A stretch of DNA of 64,000 bases, taken from Acidimicrobiales bacterium (GTDB taxonomy: Bacteria > Actinomycetota > Acidimicrobiia > Acidimicrobiales > SZUA-35). Positions 1-5,092 of this stretch are shown here, piece after piece (the first letter of the stretch is position 1; each line of letters starts with the position of its first letter). A program made the position numbers and the translations under genes. The stretch spans positions 9,810 through 73,809 of the forward strand of contig JAHDCV010000005.1 of assembly GCA_020629695.1 (NCBI GenBank), written 5' to 3'. A model generated the notes under the pieces. It was not told the DNA's origin and ran no database searches. It was given only the letters and a program-made list of their open reading frames with translations.

Positions 1-6
1 CCGGGA

Positions 7-996
7 TCAGACCGGGATGACGCCCCGGAGCCCTCGAGCTGCGGTGGCGCGGATCAGTTCGCGTCCCTCGTCGGACTCCGGTTCGTGGATCGACACGATC
101 GGCAGATCACCGTCCGGATACTTCTTCTGCTCGTCGACCGTGAGGGGCGACTGACGTCGCTCACCGGGCGGCGCGACGGCCACGACCCGTTCGCCGATCT
201 GGACCGACGGCCATCGCTCGAGCGTGCGGGGACCGGGGTGGGCGAAGCTGAGGTGACCGGCCCACAACCGCCCGTGGTGGAGCTCGAACACGTGGTGCTG
301 TCCGAAGATCTCATCGACGACGCCGACCGCGACCCGGGCGAGCGAGCAGAGCAGCACCGCATTGCGGTCGGCCAACCCGTCGAGATCCGCGACGCGGAGG
401 GGCCCGCGGTCGAAGGCGATGAGTTCGAGCGCCGGGCGATACATACCGCCGCGGCGGCTGCGAATCGTCTTGCGGACCTCCTCGGCGACCGAGCCCTTCA
501 CCTTCGCGACGCCGTCGAGACGACGATGTCGACGCAACCGTCGCGCCTGGCGTCCGAGCTGGCGGATCTCGGTGAGCATCGGGATCTCGTCCATCGGTGT
601 GCCGTACCGCTCGAGGTCCCGCGACGCCCGGTCCAGCAACGACAGTGCATGGAGCAGCACCCGATTGCCGGGGATGTCGACGGTGCGCTCGGGTCGCTTG
701 CACACGAAGAGGTCGCTCGGGAACCCGTTGGCGGCACGGGCGGAGATCGTCTTCGGCCACACGACCGGCCCGGAGATGGTGCCCATCTCGAGCGTTTCCC
801 GGGTCTGGAGTTCGTTGTCGAGCGATCGCATCATGCCGGGCGCGACCTCGATCAGCCGGCGGGCTTCGGCCGAGTCGAGCAGTCGACGGGCCAGCACGTG
901 GCGGACCGCTTCCGGGCTGAGCCCGAGCAGGGTCGACGCGAGCTGGGTTCGCGGGAGGTCGGGGGAGGTCCGCTCCAGCACGAACTCGATCGACAT
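7..996 (-). CDS. McrC-like / DUF2357-like protein, partner of the adjacent AAA+ ATPase; no obvious PD-(D/E)xK nuclease motif
   Basis: ORF track 7..1176; the start is probably the internal MSIEFVLERTSP, 11 bp after the upstream ATPase stop. McrC-like stretches GNRVLLHALSLLDRA and MYRPALELIAF. Same strand and tightly spaced with the McrB-like gene. Confidence 0.55.
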   Translation of the reverse strand: MSIEFVLERTSPDLPRTQLASTLLGLSPEAVRHVLARRLLDSAEARRLIEVAPGMMRSLDNELQTRETLEMGTISGPVVWPKTISARAANGFPSDLFVCKRPERTVDIPGNRVLLHALSLLDRASRDLERYGTPMDEIPMLTEIRQLGRQARRLRRHRRLDGVAKVKGSVAEEVRKTIRSRRGGMYRPALELIAFDRGPLRVADLDGLADRNAVLLCSLARVAVGVVDEIFGQHHVFELHHGRLWAGHLSFAHPGPRTLERWPSVQIGERVVAVAPPGERRQSPLTVDEQKKYPDGDLPIVSIHEPESDEGRELIRATAARGLRGVIPV

Positions 997-1006
997 CGGC
1001 CGGGCC

Positions 1007-1939
1007 TCAGACGAGGAGCTCGACACCGAGCACGTCGGTGATGGCCCGCCGGGCCTCGGCGCGTTCGGGCGGATCGAGCGCCGGCTCGACGGTGCGAAGC
1101 AGGCGGGTCGCCTTCTCGTCGTCGAATCCGTCGAACTGGGGGAGGAAGTAGCTGTAGAACACCTCGTACAGCGCACGCGACCGGGTCACACCGTCACGGG
1201 AACGTCGAGTGGCGTACTTGCCGGCATCGATGAAGATCGCGGGGCCGAGGTCGGCCAGCTGGCGAAGCGGGAGCAGGTCACCCACGGCGGTACCGGGACC
1301 GGCGAGCAGGTTGCGGTACACGTCGTCCGGCGGGCAGCCCACCTCGATGAAGGCGAATCGACGCATGAGCGCGTAGGACATGTCGAACAGCAGGTTCTTG
1401 TCGAACACGTTCATCGTGCCGATGATCCGCCAGCTCGACGGCACGCGGATCACGTCGGTGTTGTCGGGTGCGTCGACCCCCTGCGGGGTGATCGAGATCG
1501 GAACCGAGCGGCCGTTGCGCTTGAAGGGAAGCACCACCGGCGAGCCGGACAGCACCGTGAACAGCGGGCCGAACGCGCGGTCGAAGTTCGCACGGTTGAG
1601 CTCGTCGATGATGAGCCAGGCGCCGGTCTCGATCGCGTCCATGAACAGACCCGATCGGAAGATCAGGCCGTCGACGGCGGGCATCATGCCGCCGATGGTC
1701 TCGTACGTCGTCCATTCCGACGAAGCCGTCGTCGGCATGTAGCCGGTGCAGAGCATGGCCTTGCGAGCCACCTCGGACGCGATGTAGGCGAGCGTCGTCT
1801 TCCCGGTTCCCGGCGGACCCGTCATGATGATGTGCTTGCCCGCGTCGAGCGCGGCAGTCAACTGCTCGATGACGTGCGGCGGGGCGATGTAGCCCTGCTC
1901 GGCACAAGCAGCCTGGATGGCGTCGGACGTGAACTCCAC
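1007..1939 (-). CDS. McrB-like AAA+ ATPase (standalone AAA core)
   Basis: Walker A GPPGTGKTT, Walker B LIIDELNRAN, McrB/MoxR-type signature IIGTMNVFDKNLLFDMSYALMRRFAF. Confidence 0.85.
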   Translation of the reverse strand: MEFTSDAIQAACAEQGYIAPPHVIEQLTAALDAGKHIIMTGPPGTGKTTLAYIASEVARKAMLCTGYMPTTASSEWTTYETIGGMMPAVDGLIFRSGLFMDAIETGAWLIIDELNRANFDRAFGPLFTVLSGSPVVLPFKRNGRSVPISITPQGVDAPDNTDVIRVPSSWRIIGTMNVFDKNLLFDMSYALMRRFAFIEVGCPPDDVYRNLLAGPGTAVGDLLPLRQLADLGPAIFIDAGKYATRRSRDGVTRSRALYEVFYSYFLPQFDGFDDEKATRLLRTVEPALDPPERAEARRAITDVLGVELLV

Positions 1940-1989
1940 CTCGACCCATCGGCCACGCTCGCCCCGGGTTGACCCCCTAGCCTGGGGAA

Positions 1990-2193
1990 ATGCAGAACTC
2001 CGACCGGGTCATCGAGATGCACGACGAGCTGGCTCGTATGTCAGAAGCACTCACGGAGCTCCTGATCGACGAACTCCGGGCGGCGGTCGAGGCCGGTGAG
2101 GGTCGCAAGCCCCCGGCGGAGAAGCCCCTCAACCAAGCCCGTCGAGCCATCGAGAAGGCGGCACGCCACCTCGCCGAAGCGTCGGAACTCTGA
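1990..2193 (+). CDS. Small hypothetical helical protein (67 aa)
   Basis: Complete ATG-stop ORF between oppositely oriented genes; Ala/Glu-rich amphipathic composition. Confidence 0.55.
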   Translation: MQNSDRVIEMHDELARMSEALTELLIDELRAAVEAGEGRKPPAEKPLNQARRAIEKAARHLAEASEL

Positions 2194-2226
2194 TCCGAGG
2201 CACCGCCGGCCCGCGTCGCTCGACGT

Positions 2227-3351
2227 TCAGTTCTCGTCGGGCACGGGCTCGTCGTCGCGTCCGAAGTGCAGGTCGTGCGGCCGACCGGTCGGGGCCATGA
2301 TGTCGCCGTCGGCGCACAGGTCGTTGATACGCCAGATCAGTGAGATCAACCGGGCGTAGCTCTTGTTGTCGAAGCTGAACCCGAGGCGGGGGAGATCGAC
2401 GTTGTCGTCGGTCTGGCGTTCCGCCCGCGTCGGTTCGATCGCCCGGATCGAGCCGGAGACGACGATGTCGGCGTACTCGGCGTTGAGCTGTGCGATCGCC
2501 TCTTCGTTGAGGGCGTGGCGGAGCCTCAGCACGAGCGTGTTCCCGACGGTCCGCACCGAGTGATAGGCCGAGAAGAAGTGGCAGATGTGGTCGGCCGCGT
2601 CGGCCGCCGAGTGGGTGTGGAAGACCAGATCGAGGTCCTCCTCGGAGATCTTCCCGGTGGCGCCGAGACCGTCCCGGACGAAATCGGTCCAACGGTCCCA
2701 GTAGGGCGAGTCCTCATGGTCGAGCAAGACGATCGGCGCGGGCTGGGCCTTGCCGGTCTGGATGAGCGTCAGGAGCTCGAACCCCTCGTCGAGCGTGCCG
2801 AATCCGCCCGGGAACAGTGCGAATGCATCGGCCTCCATCACGAAGGCGAGCTTCCTGGTGAAGAAGTACTTGAACATGGCGAGCTTCGGGTCGCCGTCGA
2901 TGATGGGGGCGGGCTTCGCCTCGAAGGGCAGGACGATCCCGACGCCCAACGCGTTCTCGAGTCCGGCGCCGACGATGCCGGCCTCCATGATCCCCGGCCC
3001 GGCTCCGGTGATGGACATCCAGTTCCGCTCGGCCATGAGCCGACCGAATTCGGCGGCGAGCACGTAATCCGGATCGTCCGGCGCGGTGCGGGCCGACCCG
3101 AACACCGTGACCTTGGAGCGATCTCGGTGAGGGGCGAAGACCTGCGCGGAGTTCAGCAGCTCGGCGAGCGCCTGGGACGCGATCTTCAGGTCGAGCCGAT
3201 CGAGATCGTTGTCGTCCATCTGGAGCGCGGTCACGATGAGCGAGCGGACGAGATCGTCGTTCCGATCGGTACCGACGAGAGCCAACACCTGGGTCAGGAG
3301 ACGATCGATCTGACCATCGCCGTAGGTGGATGCGGGACGTGGAGCACTCAC
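2227..3351 (-). CDS. LOG family (TIGR00730-type) protein with extended N- and C-termini
   Basis: GAGPGIMEAGIVGA and PGGFGTLDEGFE motifs typical of LOG proteins; 374 aa. Confidence 0.8.
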   Translation of the reverse strand: MSAPRPASTYGDGQIDRLLTQVLALVGTDRNDDLVRSLIVTALQMDDNDLDRLDLKIASQALAELLNSAQVFAPHRDRSKVTVFGSARTAPDDPDYVLAAEFGRLMAERNWMSITGAGPGIMEAGIVGAGLENALGVGIVLPFEAKPAPIIDGDPKLAMFKYFFTRKLAFVMEADAFALFPGGFGTLDEGFELLTLIQTGKAQPAPIVLLDHEDSPYWDRWTDFVRDGLGATGKISEEDLDLVFHTHSAADAADHICHFFSAYHSVRTVGNTLVLRLRHALNEEAIAQLNAEYADIVVSGSIRAIEPTRAERQTDDNVDLPRLGFSFDNKSYARLISLIWRINDLCADGDIMAPTGRPHDLHFGRDDEPVPDEN

Positions 3352-3484: not shown

Positions 3485-5092
3485 TCAGGTCCGCACGAAC
3501 CCGTCGTAGTCGGCCGCCACCACGCGGTTGCACTCCGTGACGTAGTCGGGGAAGCCGAGCAGCGGCATGAAGACCCGGGTCTTGCCCGGGATGTTCGCTC
3601 CGAGATACCAGCTGTTGCAGTGGGGGAAGAGGGTGAAATCGGCGATCGCGTTGACGTGCCCGACCCAACGCTCCGCCGAGTCCGCCGTCGGCTCGATCGT
3701 CCGGAGACCGTCGGCGTCGAGCGCTCGGATCGCGTCGTCGATCCACTCGACGTGCTGCTCGATCGACATGATCATGTTGGTCAGTACCGATGGCGAGCCG
3801 GGGCCCGTGATCGTGAACAGGTTCGGAAAGCCCGGCACCTGCAGGCCCAGGTAGTTCGTCGGCCCCGCAGCCCACGCCTCCGACAGCGGTGTCCCGTCCC
3901 GTCCCACGGGGTCGATCGCGAGCAAGGCGCCGGTCATCGCATCGAAGCCCGTGGCGAACACGATCACGTCGAGCTCGACATGTCGAGCAGCATCGTCGGG
4001 TCCGACCTCGATGCCGGTCGCCGTGATCCGCCGGATCGGCTCATCGGGGAGATGCACCAGATCCACGTCGGGCCGGTTGTAGGTCTCGAAGTAGCCCGTG
4101 TCGAGCACGAGCCGTTTGCATCCGATCACCTGCTCCGGTTGCAGTTTGCGGGCGGTGTCGGGATCCTCGACGATCGAGGCGATCTTGTCCCGGACGAAAC
4201 CGGCAGCGATCTCGTTCGAGTCGCCGTTGAGCACGAAGTCGTTCGCCGCACTCAACACCGCGAACCCGCCGACGTCGTTCCATCGACGTTCGAGATCCTC
4301 CACCACCGTCTCCACGCCGCGATCGGCGACCGCCATGTCGATGCGCTCGTTCTCGGAGCCGAACGCGCCGGTCTGCTGACGGTTCGCGGCCCGGAAGGTC
4401 GGATACCGGCCCTTGATGTCGGCGACTTCGGTGTCGGTGAGCGGACGGTTGAGGGCCGGAACCGAGTAGGTGGCCGTGCGCTGGAAGACGGTCAGATGCC
4501 CCGAGGCCTCGGCCAGGATCGGAATCGACTGGATCGCCGACGAGCCGGTTCCGATGACACCCACGCGTCTGCCGGCGACATCCACCCCCTCGTGGGGCCA
4601 GTTCCCGGTGTGCGCGGTCTCGCCGGCGAAGTCGTCGACCCCGGGCAGGTTCGGACGGTTCGCGTTCGAGAGACATCCGGTCGCCATCACCACGAACCGG
4701 GCGGCCAGCGTGTGCCCCGCACTGGTGTCGACGTGCCAACGGTCGTCGTCGTCCTGCCACACGACGTCGGTCACCCGCGTCTCGAAGGTGATGTCGCGTC
4801 GTAGATCGAACCGGTCAGCGACGTGGCCGGCGTAGCGGAGGATCTCCGGTTGGCCCGCGTATCGCTCGGTCCACTCCCACTCCTGCTCGAGGTCGGCGTC
4901 GAAGCTGTAGGAGTATTCGAGCGACGGCACATCGCAGCGGGCGCCGGGGTAGCGGTTCCAGTACCAGGTTCCGCCGACGTCGCTCGCGACGTCGAAGCAC
5001 CGCACGCTCAGTCCCGCCGCCCGGAAGCGATGGATCGAGTACATGCCGGCGAACCCGGCTCCCACGATGACGACGTCGACCTGGTCCCTCAT
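3485..5092 (-). CDS. Flavin-containing monooxygenase, Baeyer-Villiger type
   Basis: N-terminal VVIVGAGFAGMY (FAD Rossmann), VGVIGTGSSAIQ (NADPH Rossmann), and FAGETAHTGNWP matching the BVMO fingerprint FxGxxxHxxxWP. Confidence 0.87.
   Translation of the reverse strand: MRDQVDVVIVGAGFAGMYSIHRFRAAGLSVRCFDVASDVGGTWYWNRYPGARCDVPSLEYSYSFDADLEQEWEWTERYAGQPEILRYAGHVADRFDLRRDITFETRVTDVVWQDDDDRWHVDTSAGHTLAARFVVMATGCLSNANRPNLPGVDDFAGETAHTGNWPHEGVDVAGRRVGVIGTGSSAIQSIPILAEASGHLTVFQRTATYSVPALNRPLTDTEVADIKGRYPTFRAANRQQTGAFGSENERIDMAVADRGVETVVEDLERRWNDVGGFAVLSAANDFVLNGDSNEIAAGFVRDKIASIVEDPDTARKLQPEQVIGCKRLVLDTGYFETYNRPDVDLVHLPDEPIRRITATGIEVGPDDAARHVELDVIVFATGFDAMTGALLAIDPVGRDGTPLSEAWAAGPTNYLGLQVPGFPNLFTITGPGSPSVLTNMIMSIEQHVEWIDDAIRALDADGLRTIEPTADSAERWVGHVNAIADFTLFPHCNSWYLGANIPGKTRVFMPLLGFPDYVTECNRVVAADYDGFVRT

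Follow-up and report, generated by a model that had tools for sequence, protein, structure and literature searches.

A nuclease-less McrBC-derived gene pair at a housekeeping locus of Acidimicrobiia

The window, a 64-kb piece of a 4.17-Mb draft genome (G000:C1:9810-73809), begins with a gene pair that is probably an exapted, reduced and non-cleaving motor derived from McrBC, inherited vertically, repeatedly lost and no longer a restriction enzyme. The upstream gene encodes an McrB-type AAA+ core protein of 310 aa with a GTG start (1007..1939, minus strand). The downstream gene lies 10 nt away on the same strand and encodes a nuclease-less, McrC/DUF2357-like partner of 329 aa (7..996, minus strand). 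Genes were called by a simple script, and most of the genomes compared were metagenome-assembled genomes; the nearest named relatives of the window genome are themselves Acidimicrobiales MAGs.

The AAA core and its partner

The AAA protein matched Pfam AAA_5 (9e-15) and NCBIfam McrB (9.7e-12), and its best PDB matches were McrB and midasin. No N-terminal domain is present: the protein is AAA-only and about 310 aa long throughout the Acidimicrobiia clade, as the sequence-only reading had described it for the window. The protein is 61-94% identical across the order, with about 90 invariant residues. The Walker A motif, GPPGTGKT (residues 41-48; 1796..1819, minus strand), is directly followed by Thr49. 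The segment containing Walker B and the McrC-coupling residues, DELNR (1592..1606, minus strand), was invariant in 23 sequences; its residues D112, E113, N115 and R116 are equivalent to D279, E280, N282 and R283 of E. coli McrB. The NxxD signature, NVFD (1400..1411, minus strand), provides N177 and D180, the counterparts of N333 and D336, and the Arg-Arg pair R193/R194 (1358..1363, minus strand) corresponds to R348 (sensor II) and R349 (arginine finger). All of these residues and K47/T48 of Walker A were invariant in the family. E. coli McrB N282, the equivalent of N115, is required for stimulation by McrC (PMC6624300; PMC7680126 for residue roles).

McrB has been described as the sole AAA+ protein that prefers GTP, and the residue after Walker A in McrB proteins is a stacking Trp, Phe, Tyr or Arg (PMC7680126). 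Here, Thr49 stands in place of the stacking aromatic and MNVFDKN in place of MNxxDRS, and GTP selectivity is therefore not to be assumed. It was possibly lost, and the activity of the AAA protein may differ from that of McrB. The aromatic residue is also missing in several nuclease-bearing relatives.

Searches of Pfam, NCBIfam and PADLOC gave no match to the partner, and none above chance level to its relatives. Single-sequence searches of PDB sequences and viral contigs, and a search of BFVD with the partner model, returned nothing usable. A tblastn search gave weak matches to plasmid proteins, which provided a route to nuclease-bearing relatives on Priestia, haloarchaeal and Paenarthrobacter plasmids, several of them adjoining DNA methyltransferases or restriction genes. 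When a profile of 24 reduced partners was compared with the nuclease-bearing McrC-like proteins by hhalign, the match was highly significant (99.1% probability, E 5e-19) and spanned about 200 columns, stopping where the nuclease starts. The link to McrC was made through this intermediate family; when the partner was aligned directly to E. coli McrC by hhalign, the score was not significant, though the register agreed. The AlphaFold model of the partner (pLDDT 92.4) was searched with Foldseek, and the first four matches were the four PDB chains of McrC, from E. coli and T. gammatolerans. These had a probability of 1.00 and were the only high-probability matches, with low TM-scores of 0.27-0.35. 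The profile comparison and the predicted fold point to the same family, and the partner is a real McrC relative, in agreement with the earlier McrC/DUF2357-like assignment.

Residues 28-238 of the partner (283..915, minus strand) form the McrC-like finger/DUF2357 region, which is conserved and carries the motif G-x-I/V-x-G-P-V-x-W...T...AR...FVC...R...D...EN/GNR-L. A basic cluster lies close to where E. coli McrC has K157 and T. gammatolerans McrC has R263, with the exact residue not fixed. A C-terminal remnant without catalytic residues (residues 239-329; 10..282, minus strand) replaces the PD-(D/E)xK nuclease of the relatives. No PD...(D/E)xK pattern was found in the partner or elsewhere in the reduced family; the catalytic residues of E. 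coli McrC (D244, D257 and K259) and the motif in the plasmid relatives are readily visible. The absence of a nuclease motif noticed in the sequence-only reading was borne out. The C-terminal part measures about 55-125 aa in the reduced family versus 180-226 aa in the nuclease-bearing relatives. In the AlphaFold2 model it is arranged as alpha-beta-beta...alpha-beta-alpha. It gave no sequence alignment with the nuclease domain, so that a degenerate PD-(D/E)xK fold is conjectural.

The sequence-only reading had also raised the possibility of a defence variant with its effector encoded just left of the window. Immediately left of position 1 lies a 100-N scaffold gap (L002:9710-9809), which is flanked on either side by an identical 18 bp, CCGGGATCAGACCGGGAT. 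This repetition suggests that the contigs overlap and that the gap is probably artificial. The stop codon of the partner falls within the shared 18 bp, and in a congener (G014) the partner homologue, also 329 aa and 61% identical, adjoins a ClC chloride channel gene on an unbroken contig. Therefore, the partner is not cut off by the window edge. The first gene beyond the gap is likewise a ClC channel gene, as it is next to other homologues, ruling out a hidden effector gene and leaving that proposal unsupported.

Chromosomal locus and descent

Of 198 sampled genomes of the order, 17 encode the AAA protein and 17 encode the partner; 16 have both. The pair is present in only about 9% of the sampled genomes and is therefore dispensable. 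In the genome with the partner only (G049), the AAA, LOG and TauE genes alike have frame breaks, which suggests sequence errors. The genome with the AAA protein only (G229) carries a diverged solo copy, DEINRADLDLSFG, at L188 (G229:C290):3780-4643 (minus strand), without an adjacent partner and on a 4.6-kb contig with a different context from the pair locus. A search of 397 genomes of the phylum added no family member and gave only two weak matches. A scan of named genomes found the pair in about 50 Acidimicrobiia species or genomes, with AAA identities of 61-93%; one carrier, Actinobacteria bacterium IMCC26207 (L140), is a record other than a MAG. Two MAG records under the name Bifidobacterium breve and one under Acidobacteria (L141, L146 and L139) contain Acidimicrobiia-like sequence with the same synteny, and these names look wrong.

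Wherever contigs were long enough to read the context, the pair occupied one housekeeping locus, with the backbone TKT-TAL-6PGL-FbiC-LOG-F4-[pair]-(BipA, ClC, amylase, TauE or F34)-RNase D-MobA-...-PyrK. No defence genes adjoined the pair at the readable Acidimicrobiia loci. The same site was found empty in 18 genomes of the order that lack the pair, each with the F4 neighbourhood but no pair in it. In G003, from the same family as the window genome, F4 and ClC are 21 bp apart. In the window, the conserved backbone gene upstream of the pair is a LOG-family (Lysine_decarbox) gene (2227..3351, minus strand). A FAD-dependent monooxygenase-like gene (3485-5092, minus strand), identified by eye, lies between it and an FbiC-like gene and is not among the backbone families of other loci.

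F4, for example at L048:10677-11450 (minus strand), encodes a Cys/Trp-rich protein of about 255 aa with the motifs GCCSxGAhF ... ACIfLNR ... GCALH ... WKPxVCWQ and has no match in Pfam or NCBIfam. It usually lies directly upstream of the AAA gene, but it is missing from this locus in the congener and also in the window genome, where the interval between LOG and the AAA gene is 1940..2226. F4 was present in 154 of the 198 genomes, pair or no pair, and it was rejected as an obligate third component since it is near-universal regardless of the pair and absent at the window locus. No other third gene was tied to the pair across homologous loci. Another family, F20 (about 570 aa, no Pfam match; L036:1694-3409, minus strand), adjoins LOG in five genomes, all from one genus of the window's family, and in one of these (L040) it is flanked by F4 and the AAA gene.

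The 45 in-group AAA sequences tested formed one clade (SH-aLRT 98) in a quick-search tree. Its sisters were five nuclease-bearing systems from Mycobacterium sp. E3198, an Akkermansiaceae MAG, Actinomadura, Motilibacter and Herbidospora (L167:4870-8252, L168:3676-7613, L169, L170 and L171). The sister AAA proteins are 670-900 aa long, with N-terminal extensions of about 330-580 aa. Their cores are 41-48% identical to the in-group AAA protein and have in common with it the block MNVFDK(S/N)LLFxMS(F/Y)ALMRRF. The Mycobacterium extension is SRA-like (E 9.5e-5, below Pfam's cut-off) and the Akkermansiaceae extension is Pua-like (E 1.2e-8). The sister partners, of about 410 aa, have an intact nuclease motif (PD...ExK), and their N-terminal part aligns with the in-group partner; for those tested, neither Pfam, NCBIfam nor PADLOC returned McrC. 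Some of the sister systems adjoin a resolvase/recombinase, IS110 or DndB. The nuclease motif was present in every one of the 17 outgroup partners found and, at that position, in none of about 50 in-group partners, one of which (L117) has a single loose match in its middle region. Since the sister systems still have N-terminal extensions and an intact nuclease, the Acidimicrobiia branch appears to have lost reader and nuclease. A loss of both at the base of the in-group would be the simplest history, with loss rather than gain as the probable direction.

Trees of the AAA protein, RNase D and F4 were compared over 32 loci. The normalised Robinson-Foulds distances of the AAA tree to the other two were 0.38 and 0.45, versus 0.52 between RNase D and F4. 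Because this agreement matches that between two backbone genes, the pair was inherited along with its locus. The fixed locus and the tree agreement also suggest that the pair was lost repeatedly. One copy is clearly decaying: at L173:5974-7524 both genes have internal deletions, with the surrounding FbiC, LOG, F4, ClC and RNase D intact. Selection was estimated by NG86 on one pair of genomes, the window genome and its congener. The AAA gene had the lowest dN/dS of nine locus genes (0.064), and the partner had the highest dN in the locus (0.34), with a dN/dS of 0.42.

Possible functions of the pair

With reader and cutter lost, one fixed spot in the chromosome and a strongly conserved AAA protein, the motor was most likely given a different job in the cell. 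We propose that an ancestor of the Acidimicrobiia order acquired an McrBC-like Type IV restriction system at a single site in its chromosome, and that McrB then shed its N-terminal modified-base reader and McrC its nuclease. From then on the pair was inherited vertically, probably with many losses. The AAA protein would assemble into an NTP-hydrolysing ring, and the McrC-like finger of the partner would insert into this ring and stimulate hydrolysis. The ring would then perform mechanical work on a client, which could be DNA or a protein; it would translocate or remodel this client and leave DNA uncut. The fast-evolving end of the partner would probably confer specificity or tethering. The fuller version of this proposal, in which domestication turned McrBC into an AAA+ machine of the chromosome that has no part in defence, kept the motor and its McrC-type activator, discarded reader and nuclease, and leaves its client uncut, is more tentative, and we give it slightly less than an even chance. 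A non-defence role is suggested by the genomic context and the missing domains. The sequence-only reading had posed an either/or between a left-effector defence variant and a non-defence AAA regulatory pair, and the latter is the better fit, as all of the roughly 50 Acidimicrobiia copies with readable context share one metabolic and housekeeping locus without defence neighbours, a placement that the reading itself had named as counting against defence.

The patchiness of the pair and its fast-evolving partner fit a defence function too and count against exaptation. Another possible explanation is, therefore, a non-cleaving defence system that senses invaders, either at DNA ends or with the help of a trans-acting reader, and then uses translocation to block them or triggers another effector. 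The McrBC ancestry of the pair, its patchy presence and a partner with the highest dN at the locus favour this, and the dead-nuclease McrC homologues of CoCoNuT Types II and III are still predicted to belong to defence systems (PMC11090510). However, no effector or reader is tied to the pair, and F4, the usual neighbour, occurs regardless of it. The readable homologue loci are metabolic and free of defence neighbours, and the pair was inherited vertically at a single site. A defence function is for these reasons disfavoured, and we consider it unlikely.

Two other explanations are far less probable. E. coli McrB-S, the short form of McrB, probably forms mixed or sequestering complexes, and the domain make-up of the pair resembles a short McrB with an inactive McrC. 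An AAA-only McrB and a dead McrC could thus act as a regulator or decoy of a true McrBC in such complexes. Canonical McrC was, however, lacking in 15 of 18 sampled carriers, the window genome included; its occurrence in 3 of 18 carriers versus 23 of 180 non-carriers shows no clear association, which speaks against the pair either depending on canonical McrBC or antagonising it. In addition, the closest nuclease-bearing AAA cores are only 41-48% identical to the in-group AAA protein, and we regard this role as very improbable. There is a similarly slim chance that the pair is a decaying relic without function. The variably eroded C-terminal domain of the partner and the deletions in both genes at L173 are what a relic would show, but the identity, invariant residues and low dN/dS of the AAA protein, together with a partner dN/dS below 1, already disfavour it.

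Exaptation of the motor is the preferred reading. To our knowledge, the McrC-stimulated McrB motor has been characterised in restriction only. A clade that kept motor and finger and discarded both defence ends separates motor function from restriction and provides a case of a defence enzyme put to another use. The pair is also a minimal natural system of 640 residues for studying McrC-type activation, and the five nuclease-bearing sister systems allow a direct before-and-after comparison. The literature searched, mostly non-subscription papers, contained no account of a pair reduced in this way; the census paper leaves its NxxD branches to a later publication.

Comparison with known systems

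The sister systems differ from the pair in their longer AAA proteins with extensions and in their partners with PD...(D/E)xK; the pair has neither. CoCoNuTs combine an NxD motif with coiled-coil proteins, a UPF1-like helicase and HEPN RNases, and in Types II and III the predicted effectors are other nucleases and the nuclease of the McrC homologue is dead (PMC11090510). In Types II, III-B and III-C the McrC homologue retains an inactivated PD-(D/E)xK fold; the partner of the pair is similarly an McrC homologue, with no nuclease motif. Its AAA protein has NxxD (NVFD) rather than NxD, and no helicase, HEPN RNase or coiled-coil protein was found in the pair neighbourhoods examined. For these reasons, the pair is not a CoCoNuT, as judged from motif and neighbourhood.

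Compared to McrBC of E. coli and T. gammatolerans, the pair has the same adjacent AAA and partner genes and an McrC-type partner fold. The AAA protein conserves Walker A and B, NxxD, the Arg-Arg pair and the McrC-coupling Asn, and the partner has, by homology in hhalign and Foldseek, a predicted N-terminal DUF2357/finger domain. Unlike McrBC, the pair has no N-terminal reader, no PD-(D/E)xK nuclease and no defence neighbourhood; it is vertically inherited and has Thr as the residue after Walker A. Since reader and nuclease were both looked for and are both missing, the pair is, by its sequence, not a Type IV restriction enzyme. What it retains suggests that it would work like the motor half of McrBC.
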